A stretch of 37,811 bases of DNA, taken from assembly GCA_025927855.1 (NCBI GenBank), contig JAICKN010000006.1, forward strand, positions 1 to 37,811, read 5' to 3'. The DNA comes from Terriglobales bacterium (GTDB lineage Bacteria; Acidobacteriota; Terriglobia; Terriglobales; Acidobacteriaceae). The stretch's first letter is position 1, and each line of letters begins with the position of its first letter. Positions 12,752-37,811 of this stretch are shown piece by piece. A program made the position numbers and the translations under genes. The notes below the pieces were generated by a model. It worked only from the letters and a program-made list of their open reading frames with translations. It was not told the origin of the DNA and did no database searches.

Positions 12752-13324
12752 ATGAAAGCCACAGAGCACTTAGAAATGGAGCACCACAAGATCGCCAGAG
12801 TAGCCGAAGGATGTGTGGTCTTCGCGGATGAATTACAGCAGGGTGTCAAAATCCCTTCCAACATCCTAAAGAGTCTAGCCAGCTTTCTCCATTTGTACGC
12901 CGAACAGTACCACCACGAGGAAGAAAAGTGGCTGTTCAGCATGCTCAGGCAACGCGGAGTGCCAGCAGGAGCTTGCCCCATTGCGGCGATCTCCCATGAA
13001 GATGACAAGCTGCGAATGCTGGTGGATCAACTCTCAACTGCTGTGGATGTTTATGCTAAAACGGACGGAGCCGTAGACAGCACGCTGGTAGATACTTTGC
13101 GCTCCCTTGCACACATGTATCGTGACCACATCTGGAAAGAGGACTACTTGCTGCTGCCCATGGCGAACAAAATTTTGTCGGACGGCGATCAGCAGATTCT
13201 CGCTGAAGCTTTTGCCAGCCTGGATGATCGCGTCAGCGAAGAGGCCTATCAGTCGCTGGCACAGCTCAGCAAGGCGATTAAATCTTGTCCGCTTTGCTCG
13301 ACGCCTCAAGAGCACGCTGCCTAA
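12752..13324 (+). CDS. Hemerythrin domain-containing protein
   Basis: MKATEHLEMEHHKIARV..., YAEQYHHEEEKWLFSML, ISHEDDKLRML, YRDHIWKEDYLLLPMANK; hemerythrin-like His/Glu pattern. Confidence 0.85.
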   Translation: MKATEHLEMEHHKIARVAEGCVVFADELQQGVKIPSNILKSLASFLHLYAEQYHHEEEKWLFSMLRQRGVPAGACPIAAISHEDDKLRMLVDQLSTAVDVYAKTDGAVDSTLVDTLRSLAHMYRDHIWKEDYLLLPMANKILSDGDQQILAEAFASLDDRVSEEAYQSLAQLSKAIKSCPLCSTPQEHAA

Positions 13325-16398: not shown

Positions 16399-16740
16399 AT
16401 GGAGAACTCACTTTTTCCTGCTGCAACACTTGAAATCGGAAAGAAGCGCGAAGAGCTTGCCCCGGAGGCGCTAAATTCATGGCGCGCCTTTAGCCGGCAG
16501 GTGTTTGCCGACGGGGCATTGCCGGCAAAGACAAAGGATCTTATTGCAGTGGCGGTTGCTCATGTGACGCAATGCCCGTATTGCATTCGTGCCCATACCA
16601 AAAGCGCGCGGCAAAAGGGGGCTACCGAAAAGGAGATCATGGAAGCCATCTGGGTAGCTGCGGAGATGAGGGCGGGGGCGGCGATTGCGCACTCGGCGCT
16701 CGCCCTTGACGTCATGAAGGAGCATGGTGCGGGTAGCTGA
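16399..16740 (+). CDS. Carboxymuconolactone decarboxylase / AhpD-like family protein
   Basis: LPAKTKDLIAVAVAHVTQCPYCIRAHTKSARQKGATEKEIMEAIWVAAEMRAGAAIAHS with CxxC; GAGGAGG upstream. Confidence 0.9.
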   Translation: MENSLFPAATLEIGKKREELAPEALNSWRAFSRQVFADGALPAKTKDLIAVAVAHVTQCPYCIRAHTKSARQKGATEKEIMEAIWVAAEMRAGAAIAHSALALDVMKEHGAGS

Positions 16741-16969
16741 CGTGGCGACTGCCTGAATACGACCAGCCCATATCAGCATCATATGTAATGGTCCATGTGA
16801 GCAGAGATGTAGATGTTCGCATTCTTTGTGATCCTGCAAGAAGGCCAATGGGCTGGAAGTTTAGATATATCGAGGTATGATACTGTTAACGCCGGTATTT
16901 ATGTTCGGATGCAAAGAAGCAAGCTGAACATAATTGGCGGCCGCGGCTCGCAGAGAGGAGGACCCCCTC

Positions 16970-18058
16970 ATGAATGCGACGCTCACGACTGGGATACATA
17001 GCGACATCGAACGGCATCTCGGGCCGCAGGCTGAAGTCCTACTCAGTTTCAAAGACCCAAAAATCCCACGTGCGCGACTCCACCTTCCCGGCCCCGATGT
17101 GATTGATCGCATCTACGCTCTTTCCGACCGGAAGCCTCAAGTTCTCGTTAGCCTTCAGCGCATCTTCGGGCATGGCAGGTTGGCCCGTAGCGGCTATCTT
17201 TCGATTCTGCCCGTTGATCAAGGGGTCGAGCATTCTGCCGGTGCGAGTTTCGCGCCCAACCCTGATTACTTCGATCCCGAAGAGATTGTTAAATTGGCAA
17301 TCGAGGGCGGGTGCAATGCGGTTGCTTCGACCTTCGGCGTACTGGGCATTGTGGCCAGGAAGTATGCTCATAAGATTCCCTTTATCGTCAAAATCAATCA
17401 CAACGAATTGCTGAGCTTTCCTAATAAGTTCGATCAAATTCTGTTTGGCACGGTAAAAGAAGTTCAGGAAATGGGCGCCGCCGCTATTGGCGCAACCATC
17501 TATTTTGGATCTGCCGAGAGCTCGCGCCAGATCGTCGAAATCAGCCAAGCGTTCGCTATGGCACACGAATTGGGGATGGCGACTATCTTGTGGTGTTACC
17601 TGCGCAACCAGGCGTTCAAAATGGACAAGGACTACCACCTTTCTGCTGATCTCACTGGCCAGGCAAACCACCTTGGATGCACGCTTGAAGCCGACCTCAT
17701 CAAGCAGAAATTACCGGAACTCAATGGAGGGTACAAAGCTCTGAACAAAGAGCGTCCCGGATATGGAAAGTTTGACGAGCGCATGTATTCAGAACTGAGC
17801 AGCGATCATCCCATTGATTTGTGCCGCTACCAGGTCGCTAACTGTTATATGGGCCGTATCGGGCTCATCAACAGCGGGGGCGGCTCGGGTAAGAATGACT
17901 TCGGGGATGCCATTGCAACGGCGATCATCAACAAGCGGGCTGGCGGCACAGGCCTCATTGCGGGGAGAAAAGTCTTTCAGAGGCCAACACAGGAAGGTGT
18001 TCCTCTGCTGAATCTTATTCAGGATATCTATCTGTCGAACGAAATTGATGTCCCGTAG
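16970..18058 (+). CDS. Class I fructose-bisphosphate aldolase (DhnA/FbaB type)
   Basis: [86 protein letters not shown] upstream of ATG 16970. Confidence 0.9.
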
Positions 18059-18203
18059 CGGTGCGAATGGATTTGTTTAGAGTTTCCGCAAAGTACCGGC
18101 TGGCCTAAGCAGCTGTTTTTGTGCTGGAGCGCACGCGGCTGAATTTCGTTTGCTGGGAAAGTCATAGCAACAGCTTGCAGGTAGTTGCCGTCTAAGGAGC
18201 ATC

Positions 18204-18575
18204 GTGACACTGTGGGCCTTTGGCGTTTACTTCGCCCTCGTATTTGCGCTTGTAGTTGCCATGCTAGCCGTGTCCTACGTGCTGGGACAGAGGCATCGCG
18301 AAGCCGCCACTGACTCACCTTATGAATCGGGAATTGTTTCGACTGGATCAGCCCACCTCCGATTATCAGCAAAGTTTTATTTAGTCGCGATGTTTTTTGT
18401 GATCTTCGACTTGGAAGCGGTATTCATCTTCGCCTGGGCTGTCGCAGGACGGGAACTGGGGTGGGCTGGATACTGGGAGCTTCTCATCTTCAGCGGCGTT
18501 CTCGTTGCCGCTCTTGTCTACCTGTGGCGCGTGGGTGCATTGGATTGGGGATCGATTCAACGCCACACGCGATGA
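18204..18575 (+). CDS. nuoA: NADH-quinone oxidoreductase subunit A
   Basis: DSPYESGIVSTGSAHLRLSAKFYLVAMFFVIFDLEAVFIFAWAV; GTG start with AAGGAG. Confidence 0.95.
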   Translation: MTLWAFGVYFALVFALVVAMLAVSYVLGQRHREAATDSPYESGIVSTGSAHLRLSAKFYLVAMFFVIFDLEAVFIFAWAVAGRELGWAGYWELLIFSGVLVAALVYLWRVGALDWGSIQRHTR

Positions 18576-18587
18576 AGAGAGCACCGT

Positions 18588-19229
18588 ATGCAATGGTCCA
18601 TTACGAAACCGAGTGAAACTCAACGGCTGCTCGAAGCCGATAACCAGCCTTTCGAATCCGCCGTGCGCCGCAGCCTGGTTCTGGGCCGCCTTCAGGATCT
18701 ACTGGCCTGGGGCCGCAAGAACTCCATCTGGCCGTTTAACTTTGGCCTCTCATGCTGCTACGTGGAACTTGCCACCAGCATCACCAGCAAATATGACGTG
18801 GCGCGGTTCGGCGCCGAGGTGATTCGGGGCACTCCGCGCGAGGCCGACCTGATGGTGATTGCCGGCACGGTCTTCATCAAGATGGCTCCAATCATCCAGC
18901 GGCTCTACGAGCAAATGATGGAGCCGCGCTGGATCATTTCCATGGGCTCGTGTGCGAATTCCGGCGGCATGTACGACATTTACAGCGTTGTCCAGGGAGT
19001 GGACAAATTTCTGCCGGTAGATGTCTATGTGCCCGGCTGCCCACCCCGACCCGATGCATTCATGGAAGGGTTGCTGCTGCTGCAACACGCTGTCGGCAAG
19101 GAGCGCAGGCCCCTGAGTTGGGTTGTGGGCCCGCAAGGAGTAGAGAGGGCGCCGATGCCGTCCTTGCGGGACCTGAAACGTCCGCTGCGGCAGCAGGCAA
19201 CCACATTACGGCCACCGGACGAGGTGTGA
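18588..19229 (+). CDS. nuoB: NADH-quinone oxidoreductase subunit B
   Basis: [79 protein letters not shown]. Confidence 0.96.
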
Positions 19230-34364: not shown

Positions 34365-36266
34365 GTGAAAAAACAGATTCCACAGCAACGCCATTTAGCG
34401 ATGTCGGTTTCTTTCTTCCTGTTATTTTTATTTATCTTCGTTGCCACTGAATCATTAATCGCACAATCCAATCCAAAAAATACTTCGAACCGCTCTGGCG
34501 GGAAAATTGCCGATATTGTCCGCGATCCGGCCGTTATTCCTGCGCCATTGGGAAATCGCGCTCCCACCGTGGTGCGGGTCACGCTCGTGGCCAGAGAAGT
34601 TGTCGGTCAACTTGATCCTGCAGTAGGCACTGTTTACCGTTATTGGACTTTCAACGGCAAAGTGCCGGGCCCGATGATCCGGGTCAAACAAGGTGACACG
34701 GTGGAGGTTACGCTGCGCAACGATGCACACAGCACCATGGTCCATTCAGTGGACTTCCATGCAGCTCTTGGTCCCGGCGGTGGAGCAGATATATCTCAAG
34801 TCCTTCCGGGCGAATCCAAAACGTTCACGTTCAAAGCCACAACTGCGGGCCTGTTTGTGTACCACTGCGGCACGCCCATGATAGCGCAGCATGTTGCGAA
34901 TGGGATGTATGGTTTGATTTTGGTCGAACCGCCGCAAGGGCTTCCACGTGCGGACCGGGAATACTACATCATGCAGGGGGAACTCTACACAAACTCGAAC
35001 AAAGGTACTCCTGGGTTGCAGCAATTCAGCAACACAAATCTCCTGCAGGAAAATCCTCAATACTTCGTTTTTAACGGAGCTGTGGGCTCCCTTAATAAAG
35101 AGCACCCGCTTCGAGCCGAAGTTGGACAGACAGTGCGGATTTACTTTGGCGATGCTGGCCCGAACGCCACATCTTCATTCCATGTGGTCGGTGAGATATT
35201 TACACGCGTCTACGCTCTGGGATCGCTCACTTCTCCGCCTATGGCCGGCGTTCAAACAGTAAGTGTTCCGCCAGGTGGTGCTGCTGTTCTGGATCTCACC
35301 GCAAGCATGCCGGGTAATTTCACGATAATAGACCACGCAATGGCACGCATGGAGAAAGGCCTGATGGGAGTTCTGGAAGTCACAGGCACTCAGGATGCTG
35401 CCTTGATGCATGTGGGTCCTGCGGTCTCCACGGCTAGTTCTCAAACACCTTCGTTTGTAAGTGGCATGACGAAGCAGGATATGGCAGAGGCCGCTAATGT
35501 GAATGGCGATGCGGCCGCAATGCGAAATGGGAGTTCAAATCAAACGTCGAGACCCGGCGCCTCTGCCGGCCAAATGGCGAGCATCTCCGAACATGATGAG
35601 GTTGTTAAACCGACGCACCAATCCAATTCCAATTTTTCGAATCCATCTTCGGAAAAACCGGCAGAGATGAATGGATGCCTGCGGTTACAAAATGACGGAA
35701 AAGCGATGCTGCACGTTATGGATTCGTCGAAAGTGTACCGGTTGGAAGCCCAACCGTTTCTATTTTCTGAGAACGCCAATCGACTCGTCCATGTGACTGG
35801 ACAATTTGGGAGTGTCTTGACCGTTGAAGATCCCGATATTCCAAGCTTTGTAGTGGAGGCCGTTGAAACACTTGCTCACGATTGCACGACAAAAATGTCG
35901 GCTGCCGCCATCCACAAGATATTGACTAAAACTGTGCCGAACGATGGAGCAGTGGTGACCATGAGCGATCTGAGATTTGTTCCTTCCACGGTCACAATTA
36001 ACGCAGGGCAGAAAGTTACATGGAAGAATCCATCAGCGGTTGTGCACAATGTGGTGGACGATGCGCAAAAGGCGCTGAACCGGATAGACGTCAAAGTTCC
36101 AGCGGGAGGCAAGCAATTTGACTCCGGCTGGCTGCGCCCGAATCAGTCATTTTCCGTGGTGTTTACTGTACCCGGAACCTACCGTTATGTTTGTACGCTG
36201 CACGAAGCCCAGGGGATGAAAGGAGTGATTATCGTCAGAGCGCTACCGGCATTCGCCTCCGACTGA
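34365..36266 (+). CDS. nirK: Copper-containing nitrite reductase (NirK/AniA-type) with extra middle domain and C-terminal plastocyanin-like cupredoxin domain
   Basis: Signal peptide-like N-terminus; YWTFNGKVPGPMIRVKQGDTVEV, HSVDFHAALGPGGGAD, FVYHCGTPMIAQHVANGMYGLILVEP, SSFHVVGEIFTRVYALG, GNFTIIDHAMARMEKGLMG; C-terminal VVHNVVDD...YRYVCTLHEAQGMKG cupredoxin ligands. Start probably GTG 34365 (ORF track TTG 34359). Confidence 0.85.
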   Translation: MKKQIPQQRHLAMSVSFFLLFLFIFVATESLIAQSNPKNTSNRSGGKIADIVRDPAVIPAPLGNRAPTVVRVTLVAREVVGQLDPAVGTVYRYWTFNGKVPGPMIRVKQGDTVEVTLRNDAHSTMVHSVDFHAALGPGGGADISQVLPGESKTFTFKATTAGLFVYHCGTPMIAQHVANGMYGLILVEPPQGLPRADREYYIMQGELYTNSNKGTPGLQQFSNTNLLQENPQYFVFNGAVGSLNKEHPLRAEVGQTVRIYFGDAGPNATSSFHVVGEIFTRVYALGSLTSPPMAGVQTVSVPPGGAAVLDLTASMPGNFTIIDHAMARMEKGLMGVLEVTGTQDAALMHVGPAVSTASSQTPSFVSGMTKQDMAEAANVNGDAAAMRNGSSNQTSRPGASAGQMASISEHDEVVKPTHQSNSNFSNPSSEKPAEMNGCLRLQNDGKAMLHVMDSSKVYRLEAQPFLFSENANRLVHVTGQFGSVLTVEDPDIPSFVVEAVETLAHDCTTKMSAAAIHKILTKTVPNDGAVVTMSDLRFVPSTVTINAGQKVTWKNPSAVVHNVVDDAQKALNRIDVKVPAGGKQFDSGWLRPNQSFSVVFTVPGTYRYVCTLHEAQGMKGVIIVRALPAFASD

Positions 36267-37242: not shown

Positions 37243-37599
37243 ATGAAAGATGCCTTGCGGCAGTTTAAGAGTGAGATATTCCAGGGACTGGCGAATCCTA
37301 CGCGGATCGCCATGGTTGAGCTGTTACGTGATGGCGAGTTATCCGCCGGCAAACTGATTCAAGCACTCGGGATCGAACAAGCCAACGCATCGCAACATCT
37401 GGCCGTACTCCGGGCCAAGCAGATCGTGGTGAGCCGGAAGGTCGGCAATCAAGTCTATTATTCAATCCGCGACCGGGCGCTCATTGAGGTGCTCGATATT
37501 CTCCGGAGATACTTTTATGCCCAGCTCAATAACACTGTAACCATGCTCAAGGAAGTCGCGAGGGAGGCCCCAAAGCCCCGTCTCTCCGCACGACGATGA
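37243..37599 (+). CDS. ArsR family winged-helix transcriptional regulator
   Basis: FQGLANPTRIAMVELLRDGELSAGKLIQALGIEQANASQHLAVLRAKQIVVSRKVGNQVYYSIRD. Confidence 0.9.
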   Translation: MKDALRQFKSEIFQGLANPTRIAMVELLRDGELSAGKLIQALGIEQANASQHLAVLRAKQIVVSRKVGNQVYYSIRDRALIEVLDILRRYFYAQLNNTVTMLKEVAREAPKPRLSARR

Positions 37600-37811
37600 C
37601 CGATCCGAGTTGTTCTGAGCTTTCCCGTTTGGACCGATTGCAGCGCGCTGTAGAACAGTGCGCACACTTGCTTCCCAGGCAAGGCCCTATTGGAGTTTTT
37701 GTTCACCACAACACCCTGCATGCCTTCGAACACCTGCCATTTGAAAAAGCTGTAATCGAGGCCGCGCATCTGTTTGGGGCGGAGCCTTACATGAGCGAAG
37801 CCGACTATCGG
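37596..37811 (+). CDS. dabA: DUF2309 / DabA inorganic carbon transporter subunit, N-terminal fragment (truncated by window edge)
   Basis: MTDPSCSELSRLDRLQRAVEQCAHLLPRQGPIGVFVHHNTLHAFEHLPFEKAVIEAAHLFGAEPYMSEADYR; VHHNTLHAFEHLPF is characteristic of UPF0753/DUF2309. ATGA overlap with arsR. Confidence 0.88.
   Translation, partial: MTDPSCSELSRLDRLQRAVEQCAHLLPRQGPIGVFVHHNTLHAFEHLPFEKAVIEAAHLFGAEPYMSEADYR

Follow-up and report, generated by a model that had tools for sequence, protein, structure and literature searches.

The window, by which we mean the whole 37,811-nucleotide stretch of DNA analyzed, comes from a soil bacterium of the Acidobacteriaceae. Downstream of its nuo operon, between a cupin gene and a gene for an AhpC/TSA-like protein, lies a single frame of 633 amino acids, predicted from its sequence to encode a secreted copper nitrite reductase (NirK) that would convert nitrite to nitric oxide. 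The frame has a GTG start at 34365 and its stop at 36266; the start is preceded by GGAAAGAGG, and the starts of the homologues fall in the same alignment column. The gene and its parts are as follows:

34365..36266, forward strand: whole gene, a secreted NirK - DUF5818-like - plastocyanin fusion (reading frame, domain models, alignment)
34365..34463, forward strand: Sec-type signal peptide, a hydrophobic stretch ending ...LIA/Q (assigned by eye; common to the homologues)
34506..35387, forward strand: two-cupredoxin core of NirK (TIGR02376; alignment to 2dv6/6tfd)
35388..35663, forward strand: flexible linker of about 90 aa, rich in Ser, Asn and Ala (alignment; low pLDDT)
35664..35930, forward strand: middle domain of about 89 aa, very probably a divergent DUF5818 relative (profile, model, hhalign)
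35934..36242, forward strand: plastocyanin-type cupredoxin (PF00127; plastocyanin 1pcs)

In residue numbers, the signal peptide extends over about 1-33, the core over about 48-341, the linker over 342-433, the middle domain over 434-522 and the cupredoxin over about 524-625. An earlier note on this DNA had located the frame here, quoted motifs from it and described a NirK core followed by a Ser/Asn-rich linker, a middle domain and a C-terminal cupredoxin; the frame and all the quoted motifs are present at 34365-36266, the linker lies where it was said to, and every part belongs to one protein.

The identities of the NirK core and of the cupredoxin are firm. The core matches the TIGR02376 equivalog with 319.4 bits, above the cut-off of 296.3, and its best PDB matches (2dv6, 6tfd and 6the) are the class III NirKs of Hyphomicrobium and Bradyrhizobium. 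Alignment to 2dv6 and 6tfd gives a complete set of functional residues: H127, C168, H176 and M181 as T1Cu ligands, H132, H167 and H324 as T2Cu ligands, D130 as AspCAT and H273 as HisCAT. The NirK assignment of the earlier note thus holds, including at the T2 ligands, whose failure to align with NirK it had named as the sign of a different multicopper oxidase. The C-terminal domain, which the note had called plastocyanin-like, matches PF00127 (Copper-bind) with 68.3 bits against a cut-off of 21.2, and its best PDB match is plastocyanin 1pcs (E 3.4e-13). It carries the full His-Cys-His-Met set of a distal T1Cu site (H561, C610, H613 and M618, in a CX2HX4M arrangement), while its score with TIGR02656, the equivalog for plastocyanin in the strict sense, is 72.3 bits, below the cut-off of 87.85.

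The middle domain contains two invariant cysteines, C438 and C507, and has a predicted secondary structure of b-b-b-a-b-b. The earlier note's tentative suggestion that it is DUF5818-like is supported, though not by a direct Pfam match: the DUF5818 model (PF19135) gave no match at E<=10 to any of 18 members of the middle-domain family. An HMM search of the kind the earlier note had proposed did reach DUF5818, by way of a bridging protein. In this iterative hmmsearch, which took the middle-domain profile A1 as its starting point and covered 12,212 ORFs, the first round added a two-domain protein of genome G531 (E 2.4e-6) and the second reached DUF5818 proteins (E 1e-5 to 8e-4). Because the DUF5818 loci in the ORF set had been fetched with PF19135, so that the set was enriched for them, E-values were scaled to 100,000 sequences and a reversed-ORF control was run; the control iteration gave no match. 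With the bridging sequences included, hhalign aligned the middle domain to DUF5818 at 92% and E 5.9e-7, with both cysteines in register; when they were left out, the alignment to nine DUF5818 domains was weak (7%, E 0.005). On this profile evidence the middle domain is very probably homologous to DUF5818, as a divergent relative. DUF7450 was rejected as an identity, its one weak match (E 0.006) being to a single member of the 18, and the other Pfam matches of these members at E<=10 and the PDB-sequence matches were set aside as chance.

The bridging protein itself (L212:2416-3597, forward strand, the same as L170:577-1758) is secreted, has no NirK part and carries two DUF5818-like domains with a Gln/Ala/Pro-rich linker between them. 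Another secreted protein (L008:757-1791, forward strand; genome G005), unlinked to NirK, has an N-terminal DUF5818-like domain, a long linker and a C-terminal plastocyanin domain. The DUF5818 Pfam matches of both proteins fall below the cut-off.

The full-length AlphaFold model is of low confidence (mean pLDDT 57.7), with low values in the linker. Within it the middle domain shows the strand order b-b-b-a-b-b at a pLDDT of about 59-81; modeled in isolation, the domain has a pLDDT of 44.5. The order in this low-confidence model fits an OB barrel. In a Foldseek search with the full-length model, the best 50 matches were all NirK or cupredoxin-fused enzymes, and the model aligns with 6hbe and 9cck over the core and the C-terminal cupredoxin.

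Fifteen complete three-part relatives (L026-L040), with 54-62% identity, are found in Acidobacteriota contigs, and another with 66% identity in a genome of the same family (G025). A chance fusion is excluded by these near full-length homologues. Over the phylum, the A1 profile matched 2 of 396 genomes, both from the window's own family; within that family, taken to be the Acidobacteriaceae, 27 of 348 sampled genomes carry the middle domain, and all but one of these, or about 26, have the NirK fusion, some copies being cut by contig ends. In the matched ORFs the domain lies between the NirK core and the cupredoxin, except in contig-end fragments, in a broken copy in the window's own genome, in free proteins of G025 and G495 and in the protein of G531. 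The copper and catalytic ligands of both sites and the two middle-domain cysteines are kept in the complete fusions examined; sequences missing the search pattern were inspected by eye, which for L167 and L173 did not extend to the first histidine of the cupredoxin. The architecture is real, conserved and specific to this clade and, judged by sequence, would be a variant of the class III tethered NirKs.

The broken copy is a second fusion gene of the same genome (L106:7700-9780; contig C86, about 16700-18780). Within the linker it falls into two separate frames, which may reflect either a damaged gene or a mistake in the assembly. The free proteins (L107:4961-5866, reverse strand, and L208:2967-3866, forward strand) are secreted and consist of the middle and plastocyanin domains, and their genomes, G025 and G495, also have the fused NirK. 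The cupredoxin tree, that domain being too short, does not resolve the origin of this free arm.

All Acidobacteriota sequences entered into a tree of the NirK core group together (support 99/98). The first to branch is L056, a core-only Sulfotelmatobacter protein, and the next is G037, from another family of the order, which has core and cupredoxin and no middle domain; the fusion clade follows, with moderate support (84/84). Deep within that clade (99/93) lies L041, a relative that also has no middle domain; its 964-aa frame, with 450 extra N-terminal residues, was rejected as an over-long stop-to-stop frame because the start of an ordinary signal peptide lies within it. L042 ends at a contig edge and is uninformative on domain order. 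A second tree was made without a more distant NirK of the same family (G008, L109), which has a short C-terminal cupredoxin of its own, on account of its long branch. The simplest reading of these branchings suggests that a core gained a cupredoxin and then the DUF5818-like insertion, which would have been lost once later.

Across 20 loci that were compared, relatives carry near nirK a divergently read PAS-LuxR regulator (13 loci), NnrS (10 loci) and a protein with a hemerythrin domain (nine loci), and a relative of the AhpC/TSA-like gene also lies downstream of nirK in G025. The neighbors in the relatives (PAS-LuxR, NnrS, hemerythrin) fit a nitric-oxide physiology and the predicted product. 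A hemerythrin HHE-domain protein, of the domain type seen near the relatives' nirK, is encoded in the window at 12752-13321 (forward strand). A fusion of cytochrome b561 with a molybdopterin domain of the sulfite-oxidase type is encoded near nirK in L031 (11579-13243, reverse strand) and also in L035, L036 and L037. At 37596-37811 (forward strand) the window holds the first part of a gene for a DabA-type inorganic carbon transporter (PF10070), which comes directly after an ArsR-family regulator and is truncated by the end of the window. Of 20 genomes with the middle domain, four have NarG above the cut-off and nine have a frame as long as a qNor (764-830 aa) that matches COX1 weakly; the two of these frames examined have a NorB cytochrome-c-like domain. 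The window's own genome (90% complete) encodes NnrS and hemerythrin, and a search of it found neither narG nor norB; denitrification as such is therefore unsupported. Isolate KBS 96, with two nirK genes and no known NO reductase (PMC5900883), is a parallel.

We consider the protein to be, with reasonable probability, a copper nitrite reductase of the periplasm to which a redox partner is tethered, in which the cupredoxin would act as a relay and the DUF5818-like domain as a spacer or docking element. An electron taken up by the plastocyanin domain, whether from the respiratory chain or from a soluble donor, would move from T1Cu(C) to T1Cu(N) and on to T2Cu, where nitrite would be reduced to NO. 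A disulfide joining C438 and C507 may stiffen the DUF5818-like domain, which would keep the cupredoxin near the T1Cu of the core. That the cupredoxin is such a built-in donor is plausible, and somewhat better than an even bet, by the precedent of Thermus NirK, and strict retention of the distal T1Cu ligands favors it. A spacer or docking element is probably what the DUF5818-like domain provides. Partial denitrification and nitrite detoxification are the candidate physiological roles.

The same arm could instead be regulatory or a scaffold, blocking or gating the T1Cu face or binding some other protein and so lowering activity. The extra, N-terminal cupredoxin of H. denitrificans NirK is too distant for electron donation (PMC6400189), tethered NirKs have lower activity and in RpNiR the tether gates substrate (PMC13324648), and the window protein has a long flexible linker and an extra domain besides; but the four distal T1Cu ligands are intact in each of the homologues examined, although a pure scaffold could do without them, and we regard this explanation as rather unlikely. 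The middle and cupredoxin half might also serve in copper storage or delivery, with a Met-rich linker and the distal site loading copper into the core in the periplasm. Short Met-rich clusters (such as MPMPDMM and MHMQ) do recur in the linkers of most homologues, but the window copy is almost without one, the Met enrichment is modest (5.7% vs. 4.0% in the core) and the distal site carries a redox-type His2CysMet set, so that only a slight chance can be given to this role. Finally, since NirK and small multicopper oxidases have folds in common and the protein has generic Pfam Cu-oxidase matches, it might be a NirK-like multicopper oxidase acting on another substrate; the aligned AspCAT, HisCAT and three T2 histidines, the TIGR02376 score and the NO-related neighbors in the relatives all speak against this, and it is most improbable.

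Within the preferred reading of a nitrite reductase with a tethered redox partner, we tentatively raise the possibility that DUF5818-like domain and plastocyanin form a redox module that one and the same cell (G025, G495) uses in two forms, attached to NirK and as a separate secreted protein, with the DUF5818-like part docking the cupredoxin on the enzyme. If true, this would be a first function for DUF5818 and would provide a natural pair of tethered and untethered donors. It has yet to be settled why tethered NirKs retain an additional redox domain (PMC13324648). The clade and its neighbors offer natural versions that are core-only, core plus cupredoxin, full and secondarily reduced, together with copies of the free arm; with these, what the tether does could be put to a direct test. 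The fusion would also give a first enzyme context for the uncharacterized DUF5818 family, and it adds to the nitrite-to-NO potential of the abundant soil Acidobacteriota.

The arrangement has apparently not been described so far, although it is built of mostly known parts; a limited literature search, whose silence is not proof of absence, turned up neither a paper about DUF5818 nor one that mentions Acidobacteriaceae, nirK and cupredoxin jointly. The earlier note had thought the middle domain possibly new in this context, and this inserted domain is indeed the new part; the fused C-terminal cupredoxin is already known in Thermus NirK. The DUF5818 (PF19135) secreted proteins of Acidobacteriota share with the window's domain a GC...C frame and a similar strand pattern, whereas the latter is missed by the Pfam model and sits between NirK and cupredoxin. 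The closest solved cores are those of the class III NirKs of Hyphomicrobium denitrificans and Bradyrhizobium ORS 375 (2dv6, 6tfd, 6the; 54-57% identity by Foldseek); these too have an extra cupredoxin, but not a C-terminal one (it is N-terminal in Hyphomicrobium), and 6the, according to its description, is a heme-cupredoxin-Cu enzyme of four domains. In the Ralstonia NirK the tether is no simple donor and modulates activity in complex ways (PMC13324648). The NirK-like multicopper oxidase of Nitrosopumilus maritimus (9cck) has core and C-terminal cupredoxin as in the window protein, but with 19% identity over the model and, at 409 residues, no space for a middle domain. The NirK of Thermus scotoductus (6hbe) likewise joins a core to a C-terminal T1Cu cupredoxin, at distances that permit the proposed relay T1CuC -> T1CuN -> T2Cu (PMC6400189). 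Its distal site is of the amicyanin type (CX2HX2M, Gln axial) and Ser replaces AspCAT, none of which is found in the window protein, with its plastocyanin-type CX2HX4M site, axial Met and catalytic Asp (D130); and where Thermus has a 26-residue linker and no middle domain, about 180 residues, including the DUF5818-like domain, separate core and cupredoxin in the window protein.
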